Shown: positions 26,482-45,574 of the stretch, piece by piece
Layout: each line of letters starts with the position of its first letter
Numbering within the stretch: position 1 is the first letter of the stretch
Source of the DNA: Clostridiales bacterium
Lineage (GTDB): Bacteria > Bacillota > Clostridia > Christensenellales > Pumilibacteraceae
Direction of reading: 5' to 3'
Assembly: GCA_022508445.1 (NCBI GenBank)
Contig: JAFLVG010000006.1
Span: forward strand, 1-64,000
Length of the DNA: 64,000 nucleotides
The notes under the pieces: generated by a model
The model's database searches: none
The model's input: only the letters and a program-made list of their open reading frames with translations
Told to the model about the DNA's origin: nothing
Position numbers and translations under genes: made by a program

Positions 26482-26712
26482 ATGGCAAGCCAAGAGATCG
26501 AGAAGTATTATGAACCGAGCGGTCGGGAACACACTGTCAGAAGCGAATGGATTTCGGGATGTTTCGTTATATTCGTCGATGGCGAGTTCTACGCAAACGC
26601 CGACGATCGACTGGACAAGCGCGAGACCATCGATGAGCTTGTTAAGTATAAGATGTGGTCGGCGACAAAACCGCTCAAAAGAAATACTCCGCTCGTGCCG
26701 GCAAGCAAGTGA
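26482..26712 (+). CDS. Hypothetical phage protein, 76 aa
   Basis: A strong AAAGGAGG site precedes the ATG. Mixed alpha/beta composition with ISGCFVIFVDGEFYANADDR and a basic C-terminus. Its last codons lie inside the terminator hairpin of a minus-strand RNA (26674-26751). No function recognised. Confidence 0.65.
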   Translation: MASQEIEKYYEPSGREHTVRSEWISGCFVIFVDGEFYANADDRLDKRETIDELVKYKMWSATKPLKRNTPLVPASK

Positions 26713-26751
26713 GCGGAGTAGAAGTAAACGGCTTGGGACAAGCCTTAAACT
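26674..26751 (-). ncRNA. Antisense small RNA C
   Basis: Minus-strand promoter TTGACT (26781-26786), 17 bases, TACAAT (26758-26763). The predicted RNA has a 5' hairpin GGCTTG/CAAGCC (26730-26735 with 26739-26744) and a 9-bp terminator stem ACTCCGCTC/GAGCGGAGT (26686-26694 with 26711-26719) followed by ATTTCTTTT. The terminator loop starts with ACUUG. Layout and loop motif match the RNAs at 45138 and 45440. It is antisense to the end of the 76-aa gene. Confidence 0.65.
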
Positions 26752-26834
26752 GTCCTAATTGTATCACAAATGCAAGAATCAGTCAATCATTCGGAGCTAT
26801 CCGACAACAAAAAATTCAATTAGGAGTAAAAATC

Positions 26835-27155
26835 ATGGAACTCAAACTTATAGAAATCCGAGATAGAGGAACAACAATTGCAGCACTTGCAATTAAAATG
26901 TCGCCTGAACGCGAAGGAGACATCCATTTTCTACGCCGAAGCGGCTTCGGGATAGACAGCAGCCTCGTGTATCTCATTAAGGTCGAAGGACAGGAAGCGC
27001 ACTATGACGCATTTCAGTGGCGTAATCGCACTATGCACGAAGCGCACCGTTACATTCAACAACACTTCGACGAACTCAAAGACTGCGATTTGGTCGATGT
27101 CGAATACATACTCGGCGAGTCGAACAAGCCTAAAACATCGGAGATTTGGAGGTAG
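26835..27155 (+). CDS. Hypothetical phage protein, 106 aa
   Basis: The ATG at 26835 is chosen for its AGGAG site; a longer frame upstream runs through non-coding DNA and the small RNA. The protein reads MELKLIEIRDRGTTIAALAI and contains FLRRSGFGIDSSLVYLIKVE. This pattern occurs in Firmicutes phages before recombination genes; its function is unknown. Confidence 0.7.
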   Translation: MELKLIEIRDRGTTIAALAIKMSPEREGDIHFLRRSGFGIDSSLVYLIKVEGQEAHYDAFQWRNRTMHEAHRYIQQHFDELKDCDLVDVEYILGESNKPKTSEIWR

Positions 27156-29857: not shown

Positions 29858-30625
29858 GTGGCAAGAAAGCGAATGATTTCCCCCGAGATATGGGAATCGT
29901 CGTCTTTCGCCGAATTAACTGATTTTGCAAAAATCGTCTTTATAGGACTGATTTCAAATGCCGACGACGAGGGCAAAGGCGAAGCGAACCCCGCCTTGTT
30001 GAAGTCAAAATTGTTCCCAAGAGATGAAAAGAAAAGAGCAGCCGATGTCAAATCCGCCCTATCCGAGATAGCACGCAGTACGTCCACTCTCTTTTACTCC
30101 GTTGAGGGACACGACTATTACGCTTTGACAACGTGGAAACGCTGGCAAAAGCTCGACCGTCCGACGCCATCAAAAATACCCAATCCCCCGAAAGAGCAAT
30201 CTGTGGGGGAAAGGGGGAACTGTATGCAAAATCAGCAATTCGACGAGGGCTCGACGAATACTCGACGAATACTCGACGAGGGCTCGCCCTTAATAGAAAA
30301 GAATAGAAAAGAAAAGAATGGAATAGAAGAATTAAATAAAAATAATATAACACAATACGCGCGCGTGCGCGAGGTGAAGCTGGTAACGGCATTGGGCGAG
30401 TTTTCGGACAAAACGGAATCGGAGGCTTTGTGGAAATCAATCCTCGATAAGCTCGAAGAAGAAATTAACTCGTTGAGCTTCGACGTTTGGATTAAGCCGC
30501 TTGTACCTATCGGATTTTATAATAACGCGCTTGTGCTGCGAGCGCCGAGCGAGGGCGCGCTCGCCGAAGTCCAAGCAAGGCACTTGCCGCTCATAAACAA
30601 ATACATATCAGAGGTCAACAAATGA
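29858..30625 (+). CDS. Phage replication initiator with C-terminal DnaA domain-I-like module
   Basis: 255 residues from a GTG with TAGGAGGTG upstream. The N-terminus (1-110) matches phage replisome-organiser starters (MARKRMISPEIWESSSFAEL and YYALTTWKRWQKLDRPTPSK). A repetitive linker (about 125-175) is encoded by 11-bp iterons and a purine-rich tract. The C-terminus (about 188-250) reads like DnaA domain I: ALWKSILDKLEEEINSLSFD, then VWIKPLVPIGFY and LVLRAPSEGALAEVQARHLP. DnaA domain I recruits the helicase, so this module may load host DnaB directly. The gene probably contains the origin, as lambda O does. Confidence 0.72.
   Translation: MARKRMISPEIWESSSFAELTDFAKIVFIGLISNADDEGKGEANPALLKSKLFPRDEKKRAADVKSALSEIARSTSTLFYSVEGHDYYALTTWKRWQKLDRPTPSKIPNPPKEQSVGERGNCMQNQQFDEGSTNTRRILDEGSPLIEKNRKEKNGIEELNKNNITQYARVREVKLVTALGEFSDKTESEALWKSILDKLEEEINSLSFDVWIKPLVPIGFYNNALVLRAPSEGALAEVQARHLPLINKYISEVNK
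30240..30286. repeat. Four tandem 11-bp iterons inside the initiator gene (candidate origin)
   Basis: Units start at 30240, 30251, 30262 and 30273: TCGACGAGGGC, TCGACGAATAC (twice), TCGACGAGGGC, then TCG. The 11-bp period places each site on the same helix face. A polypurine/AT-rich tract (30294-30355) follows, the classical order of iterons then unwinding element. Confidence 0.7.
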
Positions 30626-34780: not shown

Positions 34781-34839
34781 AAAGGCACTACTTGACACGG
34801 CGTGGCGGCTGTGATATACTTCAAGCAGTGCCTTTTTGT
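34781..34839 (+). promoter_or_regulatory. Promoter nested in a 15-bp inverted repeat with T-run
   Basis: AAAGGCACTACTTGA (34781-34795) pairs with TCAAGCAGTGCCTTT (34821-34835; 14 of 15) and is followed by TT, so RNA from upstream can form a terminator. Inside is TTGACA (34792-34797), 17 bases, TATACT (34815-34820), a good promoter for the packaging operon. The -35 lies partly in the left arm, so structure and promoter cannot be separated. Confidence 0.75.
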
Positions 34840-34849
34840 TGGAGGCACA

Positions 34850-35224
34850 ATGGCAGAGAAGAAAGGCGCCGGCGGAAAGAATCAACCATTCGATACAAAG
34901 ACAGGTCGATATGGCAGCGAAAGTCAAGCGACAGGCGAATACGACAGCTTGCCGAGCGCACGAAAAATTACAAGGCGTGCGGAAAAAGTTATCGGTAAAA
35001 TTGAGGCGATAACTAAACACGACTATTCGACTATTCGTTCTGAAGTTTTTAGGAAACAATCCCAACTCGGTTACAACAAAAAGAGGGACTATGTGTATTC
35101 GGCAAATTACTTCTATGTCTTTGATAATCACGATATAGATAACTTTACTATAAACATCAAAGTGGCTATCGTTGGCAACGAGAAATACATTGATATGATT
35201 TGGAAGGAGCTTGAAAATGGCTAA
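34850..35224 (+). CDS. Hypothetical phage protein, 124 aa
   Basis: Start ATG 34850 after TTGGAGGCACA. A basic Gly/Lys-rich N-terminus (MAEKKGAGGKNQPFDTKTGR) is followed by a mixed alpha/beta domain (KKRDYVYSANYFYVFDNHDI). First gene after the nested promoter. No family recognised. Confidence 0.65.
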   Translation: MAEKKGAGGKNQPFDTKTGRYGSESQATGEYDSLPSARKITRRAEKVIGKIEAITKHDYSTIRSEVFRKQSQLGYNKKRDYVYSANYFYVFDNHDIDNFTINIKVAIVGNEKYIDMIWKELENG

Positions 35225-44280: not shown

Positions 44281-44288
44281 ATATTTTT

Positions 44289-44570
44289 TCGTCGAATATT
44301 CGACGAGTAGTCTGTGAAGTTTCGATAATTACTCGATGAGGACTCGACGAGTATTCGACGAGTATTCGGTTATATGTCGTTGAGTTGTCGTCGAAACCGA
44401 AACCAAAAATAAACCGAAAATAACCAAACTGAAACCGAAAATATGCTATAATGGGGATTTTAAGCAAAAAATGGTGAAATAACCATTGAAAAACAACTAA
44501 AAACGCCCATTCATTTCTCAAAAACCATTCGACGAGGGCTCGTCGAATACTCGTCGAATACTCGTCGAAG
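44289..44570. repeat. Second set of 11-bp iterons
   Basis: Units: TCGTCGAATAT and TCGACGAGTAG (44289-44310); TCGATGAGGAC and TCGACGAGTAT twice (44333-44365); TCGACGAGGGC, TCGTCGAATAC twice and TCGTCGAAG (44529-44570). The junction TCGTCGAATATTCGACGA is a perfect 18-bp palindrome, so both orientations of one site occur. Confidence 0.75.
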
Positions 44571-44900
44571 AAAGAAGAAAGAAAAAAGAGAAAAGAACCA
44601 AAAGAGAATAAAGAAAGAAGAAAGAATTAAAACACACACAACGCATATACGCGCGTACGCGCGCGAAGGTGTGGATGTTATTTCGGTAAAAAAGAGTAAA
44701 CCATACTAAAAAGCAATAAGATTGGTGTTAATGTTACCATGTATCTATGCAAAATTGACAGAATATAACTTATTTGCCACGAAAATGATTTTTTCGAGGG
44801 TTTCTCGTTAAGACAGTTTCGTGTCATACGGGCTAAATTTGAGCAAATTTCGGCAATGTGAAAAATCAGTAAAATTTTTTAAAAAAGTTTGCAAAAACGC

Positions 44901-44945
44901 TTGACATTTGTACGTTCAAAAGTGTATTATGAATGTACGAAAGTT
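44901..44945 (+). promoter_or_regulatory. Promoter and operator of the first RHH gene
   Basis: TTGACA (44901-44906) and TATTAT (44925-44930), 18 bases apart. TTGTACGTTC in the spacer is repeated inverted as GAATGTACGA (8 of 10), a likely operator. The GTACG core resembles the CI operators. Confidence 0.65.
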
Positions 44946-44958
44946 AGGGAGGTATATT

Positions 44959-45147
44959 TTGGTACAACGCAAAAGAATGGGTAGACCCACATTAGACCCT
45001 AAGGTAATGCGTAAAGACATTAGACTTTCACGTTTAGACTGTCAGAAACTTGAATATTGTATAAGGGAGACAGGATTAACGGGTAATGAAATTATACGTA
45101 AGGGAATTGATAGGGTTTACCAAGAATTACAAGAATTAAAAAAATAA
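44959..45147 (+). CDS. Ribbon-helix-helix repressor-like protein 1, 62 aa
   Basis: Starts at TTG 44959 with GGGAGG upstream; a longer frame runs back through the promoter. It reads MVQRKRMGRPTLDPKVMRKD, then IRLSRLDCQKLEYCIRETG, then LTGNEIIRKGIDRVYQEL: a basic arm, a beta strand and two helices, the Arc/CopG pattern. It likely binds the inverted repeat in its own promoter. The antisense RNA A ends just inside its 3' end. Confidence 0.7.
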   Translation: MVQRKRMGRPTLDPKVMRKDIRLSRLDCQKLEYCIRETGLTGNEIIRKGIDRVYQELQELKK

Positions 45148-45208
45148 GGGTTACCGCTCACAACCGTGACAAGTTCAGCGACAACCCAACCGACAGACAA
45201 AGTCCGTC
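45138..45208 (-). ncRNA. Antisense small RNA A
   Basis: Minus-strand promoter TTGACA (45238-45243), 17 bases, TACACT (45215-45220). The RNA of about 70 nt has a 5' hairpin (GACGGAC/GTCTGTC type), then GGTT, then a terminator stem GGGTT-CGCT / AGCG-AACCC (45148-45158 with 45177-45187) and a perfect U-run (TTATTTTTTT). The loop contains GAACUUGUC. It is antisense to the region between the two RHH genes. Confidence 0.7.
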
Positions 45209-45264
45209 TAAATAAGTGTACCATAGATTGCTTTGTTTGTCAACAACAAACTTTCGTCAAACGC

Positions 45265-45293
45265 TTGACATACTACAAATATTGTAGTATAAT
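45265..45293 (+). promoter_or_regulatory. Promoter/operator of the second RHH gene
   Basis: TTGACA (45265-45270), 17 bases, TATAAT (45288-45293), both consensus. The spacer is an operator-like palindrome, ACTACAAATATTGTAGT, so the RHH protein probably represses itself and the genes behind it. Confidence 0.8.
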
Positions 45294-45316
45294 GGTAGTA
45301 AGTAGGAGGTAACACA

Positions 45317-45448
45317 ATGAATGATACAGCTCTTAATATTAAGATTCCGAAAGAACTGTATGACCGATTAAAGCAAGAGGCAGATAAAAAGAATATATCT
45401 TTGGCTTCTTTGGTTCGGTTGATATGTTCCGAATATCTTGATAAATAA
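45317..45448 (+). CDS. Ribbon-helix-helix repressor-like protein 2, 43 aa
   Basis: AGGAGG precedes the ATG. It reads MNDTALNIKIPKELYDRLKQ, then EADKKNISLASLVRLICSEY: a short beta strand (ALNIKIP) followed by two helices, the CopG/Arc fold size. It likely binds the palindrome in the promoter at 45265. Antisense RNA B overlaps its last codons. Confidence 0.78.
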   Translation: MNDTALNIKIPKELYDRLKQEADKKNISLASLVRLICSEYLDK

Positions 45449-45513
45449 AGAGAGGGAGCGCGCCAAGTTTCGCAGACACAACGCACTCCCAACCGACAAG
45501 AAAAACTCTTGCT
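45440..45513 (-). ncRNA. Antisense small RNA B
   Basis: Minus-strand promoter TTGACA (45544-45549), 18 bases, TACAAT (45520-45525). The RNA has a 5' hairpin CAAGA/TCTTG, then GTCGGTT, then a terminator stem (45454-45462 with 45482-45490, one mismatch) and a U-rich tail UCUCUUUAUUUAU. The loop contains GAAACUUGG. It covers the leader between RHH 2 and the antirepressor, 60 bases before that start codon, so it could act on antirepressor mRNA as sar RNA does in P22. Confidence 0.7.
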
Positions 45514-45574
45514 AATAAAATTGTATCATAAGTAAGAGCTTCTTGTCAATCACAAATTTTCAAGGAGTTTTATT

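Follow-up and report, generated by a model that had tools for sequence, protein, structure and literature searches.

A predicted antisense RNA in a clostridial prophage probably controls an early operon by translational attenuation

The analysis covered one stretch of 64,000 nucleotides, here called the window, which carries a prophage. A minus-strand unit in its early operon, C, is very likely an antisense RNA gene, the third such unit in this prophage beside two units termed A and B. Judged from its sequence and surroundings, its product RNA C is probably a cis-encoded antisense RNA that controls the distal early operon via translational attenuation.

The unit was composed of a minus-strand promoter, a short hairpin and an intrinsic terminator (26786-26677). 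Its elements and those of the sense leader opposite and beyond it were as follows.

26482..26712, plus strand: 76-aa open reading frame encoding a charged protein, its 3' end overlapped by RNA C
26677..26751, minus strand: predicted antisense RNA C, about 75 nt, from fold and descriptor scan
26677..26684, minus strand: T-rich terminator tail of RNA C, ATTTCTTTT
26685..26720, minus strand: terminator hairpin of RNA C, stem of 9-10 bp, loop with ACTTGCTTGCC, including CUUG (U-turn type) and GCCGGC
26730..26744, minus strand: 5' hairpin of RNA C, GGCUUG-UCC-CAAGCC, 6 bp
26733..26740, plus strand: arm 1 of the sense leader, UUGGGACA, inside the stretch covered by RNA C and able to pair with arm 2
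26753..26761, plus strand: arm 2, UCCUAAUUG, just outside RNA C, complementary to the Shine-Dalgarno (SD) region (anti-SD)
26758..26763, minus strand: -10 hexamer TACAAT, 17-nt spacer from the -35 hexamer
26781..26786, minus strand: -35 hexamer TTGACT of the antisense promoter
26791..26804, plus strand: palindrome TCGGAGCTATCCGA, between arm 2 and the SD and adjoining the -35 box
26817..26825, plus strand: arm 3, CAAUUAGGA, SD region of the downstream gene
26835..27155, plus strand: downstream early gene, 106 residues, the proposed regulated gene

The promoter, 5' hairpin and terminator stem with its tail were all present as an earlier sequence-only reading had described them. The promoter TTGACT-17-TACAAT (26786-26758) was a 10-of-12 sigma-70 match, and the presumed transcript, with +1 set near 26751 from the promoter spacing, was predicted to fold into two hairpins (26751-26677, -30.4 kcal/mol, z = -5.4). 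The overlap with the last codons of the 76-aa gene was likewise confirmed, the terminator covering these codons and the stop codon at 26710-26712.

A descriptor (promoter, then 5' hairpin, then terminator, all within about 95 nt) was scanned in place of a covariance model, since the stems of the units differ in length and sequence. The background rate of the layout was taken from shuffles and from fetched loci. Four matches were found in the window, namely A, B, C and a weaker site in a host gene (+9409), compared with a mean of 0.32 and a maximum of 3 in 60 dinucleotide-shuffled windows, the promoter, arm and motif definitions having been drawn up on the very sequences tested. The layout of C was therefore regarded as real and above chance. 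At gathering score, Rfam 15 gave no match at C or at the antisense units of 13 related loci.

The two other units of the prophage lie in the following positions.

45141..45243, minus strand: antisense RNA A and its promoter, overlapping the end of RHH1
45446..45549, minus strand: antisense RNA B and its promoter, flanked by the Arc-like RHH2 gene and a Bro-N antirepressor gene

All three units share a promoter, a 5' hairpin, a terminator that overlaps the 3' end of the gene before it, a CUUG/UUGG loop and a three-arm sense leader. The proposal that they form one RNA family holds for architecture; in sequence, no homology was seen between C and A or B. A lies over the end of RHH1, an RHH-like repressor gene (PHROG 876), and B, with the same layout, over that of RHH2; the 76-aa gene at C is not recognisable as RHH, its protein having no Pfam or PHROG match. 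RHH1 and RHH2 (window 44889-45330) each have an apparent promoter of their own with an inverted repeat (e.g. CTACAAATATTGTAG), as expected for autoregulated repressors. Periodic 11-bp repeats of the TCGACGAATAC type were also observed at 30227-30290 and 44287-44579, 14 kb apart and partly inverted.

DNA and protein searches for relatives of C took in 74 genomes from the family and 396 from the order, and the sole convincing one was found in genome G011. There, C occupies the matching place of a related prophage, in the order S24-type repressor, Xre-like regulator, 76-aa homologue, C, recombination genes and ssb. Between G011 and the window, both the -35 box and arm 2 with the -10 box were 100% identical, the 17-nt spacer 71%, the 5' hairpin 86%, the terminator hairpin 76% and the rest of the leader 96%, compared with 48% for the 76-aa gene (38% for its protein) and 42% for the downstream gene. 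The 5' hairpin of G011 has one change, from a G-C to a G-U pair, by which the stem is kept; the terminator stem is kept as well, with the loop core GCUUGCCGGCACG. In the terminator loop, the 13 bases of CGTGCCGGCAAGC are identical in both prophages and are read in different frames in the two genes. The palindrome TCGGAGCTATCCGA is also identical in G011; it had no second exact copy in the window, its pattern was absent from the viral contigs, and it is possibly an operator or an mRNA hairpin. Because the hexamers and leader are 96-100% identical, the flanking genes 42-48%, and the loop run lies in another frame, what is conserved in this pair of sequences is nucleic acid, that is promoter, RNA and leader, rather than protein. 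It had been considered that relatives might keep the coding frame and lose the promoter and terminator. The opposite was found in G011, where the promoter and hairpins were kept and the coding frames were not.

Wider searches yielded little for C. With the downstream protein, 19 loci were obtained from IMG/VR, all distant, showing one weak promoter-like match and no antisense unit, and hence uninformative for C; IMG/VR searches with the 76-aa protein and RHH1 returned no relatives. When the arm 2/promoter pattern was searched in genome and viral contigs, only the G011 match was real and the rest were unrelated on inspection. Separately, a promoter TTGACA-17-TATACT was noticed inside the loop of a terminator-like hairpin (AAAGGCACT...AGTGCCTTTTTG) at window 34785-34850 (+), and the same arrangement was present in the G011 prophage (L072 near 17044, +).

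In the sense leader of C, arm 2 can pair with either neighbour. With arm 1 it forms a local hairpin of -10.2 kcal/mol, and this pairing is retained in G011, where arm 1 is UUAGGACA and an A-U pair replaces a G-U pair. With the SD region it forms 9 perfect pairs, matched in length by 11 of 5000 shuffles, compared with an anti-SD match of at most 7 for 35 other genes of the window; the full duplex amounts to -11.0 kcal/mol. In a swap control the arm 2:start-region score of C was ordinary (19 of 28 swapped partners were as good), in part because the interval scored clipped two bases of the duplex. At equilibrium the predicted SD accessibility of the window leader was 0.44 with RNA C and 0.45 without it, so that no switch was visible. 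Since the equilibrium fold is indifferent to RNA C, the switch would require the arm 1:arm 2 hairpin to form first, during transcription. Blocking the antisense region lowered SD accessibility from 0.74 to 0.44 in the G011 leader, and in the B leader it fell from 0.59 to 0.00 when the antisense-covered region was made unavailable.

The arms recurred beyond C. In all of 15 sense leaders compared, arm 1 faces the 5' hairpin of the antisense RNA and is able to pair with arm 2 just past the antisense start, and arm 2 has an alternative partner in the start region of the next gene or in a terminator hairpin. Several of the streptococcal leaders are nearly identical copies, L055, L061 and L064 having much of their leader in common, so that the 15 are not independent. 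Mean energies were -15.6 kcal/mol for arm 1:arm 2 (-8.3 with swapped partners) and -14.4 kcal/mol for arm 2:start region (-9.6 swapped). Judged from their sequences, the longer leaders of L055, L060, L061, L062 and L064 seem to allow arm 2 a hairpin with a T run behind it, giving a terminator output. The loop motif CUUG/UUGG was present in 14 of the 15 loops, compared with a shuffled mean of 3.8 and a maximum of 10 (none of 5000 shuffles reached 14), and is probably a U-turn kissing motif.

According to the mechanism we propose, when RNA C is absent arm 2 could be captured by arm 1 during transcription, and the SD would stay accessible. RNA C would dock via its CUUG loop and 5' hairpin and cover arm 1, by which arm 2 would be freed to close the SD (arm 3), and the early gene at 26835 would then be poorly translated. 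The alternative pairings are features of the leader itself; their order of folding and the OFF direction of the switch are postulated. Steady RNA C output from the prophage would keep leaky early expression low in the lysogen, and RNA C could also act on the early mRNA of a superinfecting relative, which would give it a role in immunity.

RNA C could instead be a real cis-antisense RNA without any switch, whose duplex with the end of the 76-aa gene's message exposes the early mRNA to RNase III cleavage or to decay, or whose promoter disturbs the operon by convergent transcription. The layout by itself makes RNA C fully complementary to the sense mRNA, and the equilibrium SD accessibility of C independent of the antisense RNA would fit as well. 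However, the best conserved part is the leader beyond the RNA start (96%), which holds the anti-SD, and the arm complementarity across the family would be left unexplained; we consider this reading rather unlikely. The same downstream conservation speaks against an antitoxin-like RNA of a type I toxin-antitoxin pair, even though an RNA of roughly 75 nt over a 3' end has the geometry of yonT/SR6 (PMC5848175). The 76-aa protein is charged rather than a small hydrophobic peptide and has no family match, and the same layout meets an RHH regulator gene at B and a repressor-like gene at A. With no short hydrophobic toxin gene under RNA C, this very improbable reading was rejected. Transcriptional attenuation by a sense terminator was also rejected for C, since no intrinsic terminator was found on the plus strand at 26752-26834.

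The sequence-only reading had raised the possibility of action in trans, the ACUUG loops of the three RNAs being read by a common protein or paired with shared phage mRNAs. The motif CUUG/UUGG in nearly every loop would suit this, but the 5-mer ACUUG itself was lost in G011, the only close homologue (UAGCUUGCC vs CACUUGCUUGCC), and CAAGU, expected near phage start codons, was not enriched (1 of 37 start regions, 2.0 expected). Pairing of the loops with phage start regions was no better than that of shuffled loops and revealed no trans target, and the motif of L058 and L064 is on the sense strand, which suits sense-antisense kissing and not a trans reader. A U-turn loop of the YUNR type, whichever strand carries it, accelerates antisense pairing (Franch et al. 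1999, cited in PMC4485353), so the recurrence of CUUG/UUGG needs no common reader. Trans action is thus disfavoured, with a very small likelihood, and on this evidence each RNA more probably acts on its own sense mRNA. It is also highly doubtful that the conserved stretch lacks RNA function and marks a recombination boundary between exchangeable phage modules, the hairpin and promoter being there by accident. Beyond the leader the genes do differ, being exonuclease-type in the window and Gam- and Erf-like in G011, and the downstream genes of the two prophages look unrelated, with no common family. Against this, both hexamers are invariant where their spacer is 71% identical, the stems survive substitutions, and phages related through RHH1 show the same layout in largely different sequences.

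These RHH1 relatives amounted to 20 records in the phage collection, mostly streptococcal. The ten fetched (L055-L064) all had an antisense promoter, a 5' hairpin and a terminator at the end of the RHH1-type gene, and the gene after the unit in L059 and L062 encodes an antirepressor-type protein. The IMG/VR locus L024 has an RHH1 homologue, then an A-type RNA and immediately after it an antirepressor gene, and the arrangement of L029 is similar; altogether, similar units were found in phages of streptococci, fusobacteria and gut bacteria. The same antisense layout with a 12-of-12 promoter was observed in L054 (G373) near 2596 (+), downstream of an apparent ImmA/IrrE-type gene and not of RHH. 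A 'skipping-rope' RNA (RF02924) was seen in two phage contigs, at L024 1761-1839 and L057 933-1012, in each case preceding the RHH1-antisense unit by a few hundred bases.

Lysogeny control by antisense RNA has been described chiefly for phages of enterobacteria (P22 sar, P1/P7 c4, lambda OOP), and leader switches driven by antisense RNAs are familiar chiefly from plasmids. Literature searches returned no description of these phage antisense units. We tentatively suggest, as a possibility close to evenly balanced, that A, B, C and the streptococcal, fusobacterial and gut phage units may be attenuator cassettes that temperate phages carry as portable antisense-RNA modules, a class so far undescribed. 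Such cassettes would be placed behind a small gene, in many cases one for an RHH regulator, and would control whatever genes come next, be they antirepressor or early genes, through either SD closure or a terminator; three with distinct loops in one prophage would be addressed separately and may set homotypic immunity. Phage lysogeny control and plasmid-type leader switches appear to meet in phages of Clostridia, Streptococcus and Fusobacterium, with antisense attenuators of the plasmid style next to antirepressor genes and, in the case of C, within an early operon. The three-arm layout gives exact and simple predictions, which makes this possible layer of lysogeny control in Gram-positive prophages directly testable.

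P22 sar covers the ribosome-binding site of ant. It is a phage antisense RNA of 68/69 nt that blocks translation of the antirepressor (PMC12197685), ant being controlled in immI by mnt, arc and sar (PMC2629481). The order regulator gene, antisense RNA, antirepressor gene at B, and at L024 with its RHH1-type gene, resembles arc-sar-ant. C differs in that it is neither beside an antirepressor gene nor between RHH repressor and antirepressor genes. Moreover, the predicted RNAs start about 70 nt (C) and about 50 nt (B) from the SD, leaving the ribosome-binding site uncovered, and because of this gap the RNA of B cannot mask the ant SD directly. In pMV158, RNAII is encoded opposite the gap between copG, an RHH repressor gene, and the controlled gene repB (PMC4485353), the resemblance lying in this placement. 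However, RNAII has 48 nt, a single hairpin and no U-turn loop, and its inhibition of repB translation depends on the 5' tail (PMC4485353). With the transcriptional attenuators pT181 RNAI and pIP501 RNAIII the units share a competing-arm leader that would be rearranged by antisense binding, and streptococcal L055, L060, L061, L062 and L064 appear, from their leader sequences, to share the terminator output too, whereas at C the sense strand lacks a terminator from arm 2 to the start codon.

The pSK41 RNAI of staphylococcal RepA_N plasmids is a counter-transcript of about 83 nt with two stem-loops and a spacer, complementary to the rep leader some distance upstream of the start, and its binding was proposed to induce a stem-loop that sequesters the ribosome-binding site (PMC5703833). 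RNA C also has two stem-loops ending in a terminator, and its leader has a segment that can close the ribosome-binding site and a competing upstream segment in the antisense-bound region, a competition not visible at equilibrium. The settings differ, plasmid rep copy-number control against a phage early operon, RNA C overlaps the end of the upstream gene, and the two are likened by description and not by sequence. By analogy, and with C assigned to neither family, RNA C most likely acts in the manner of pSK41 RNAI, and the position of B is reminiscent of P22 sar.
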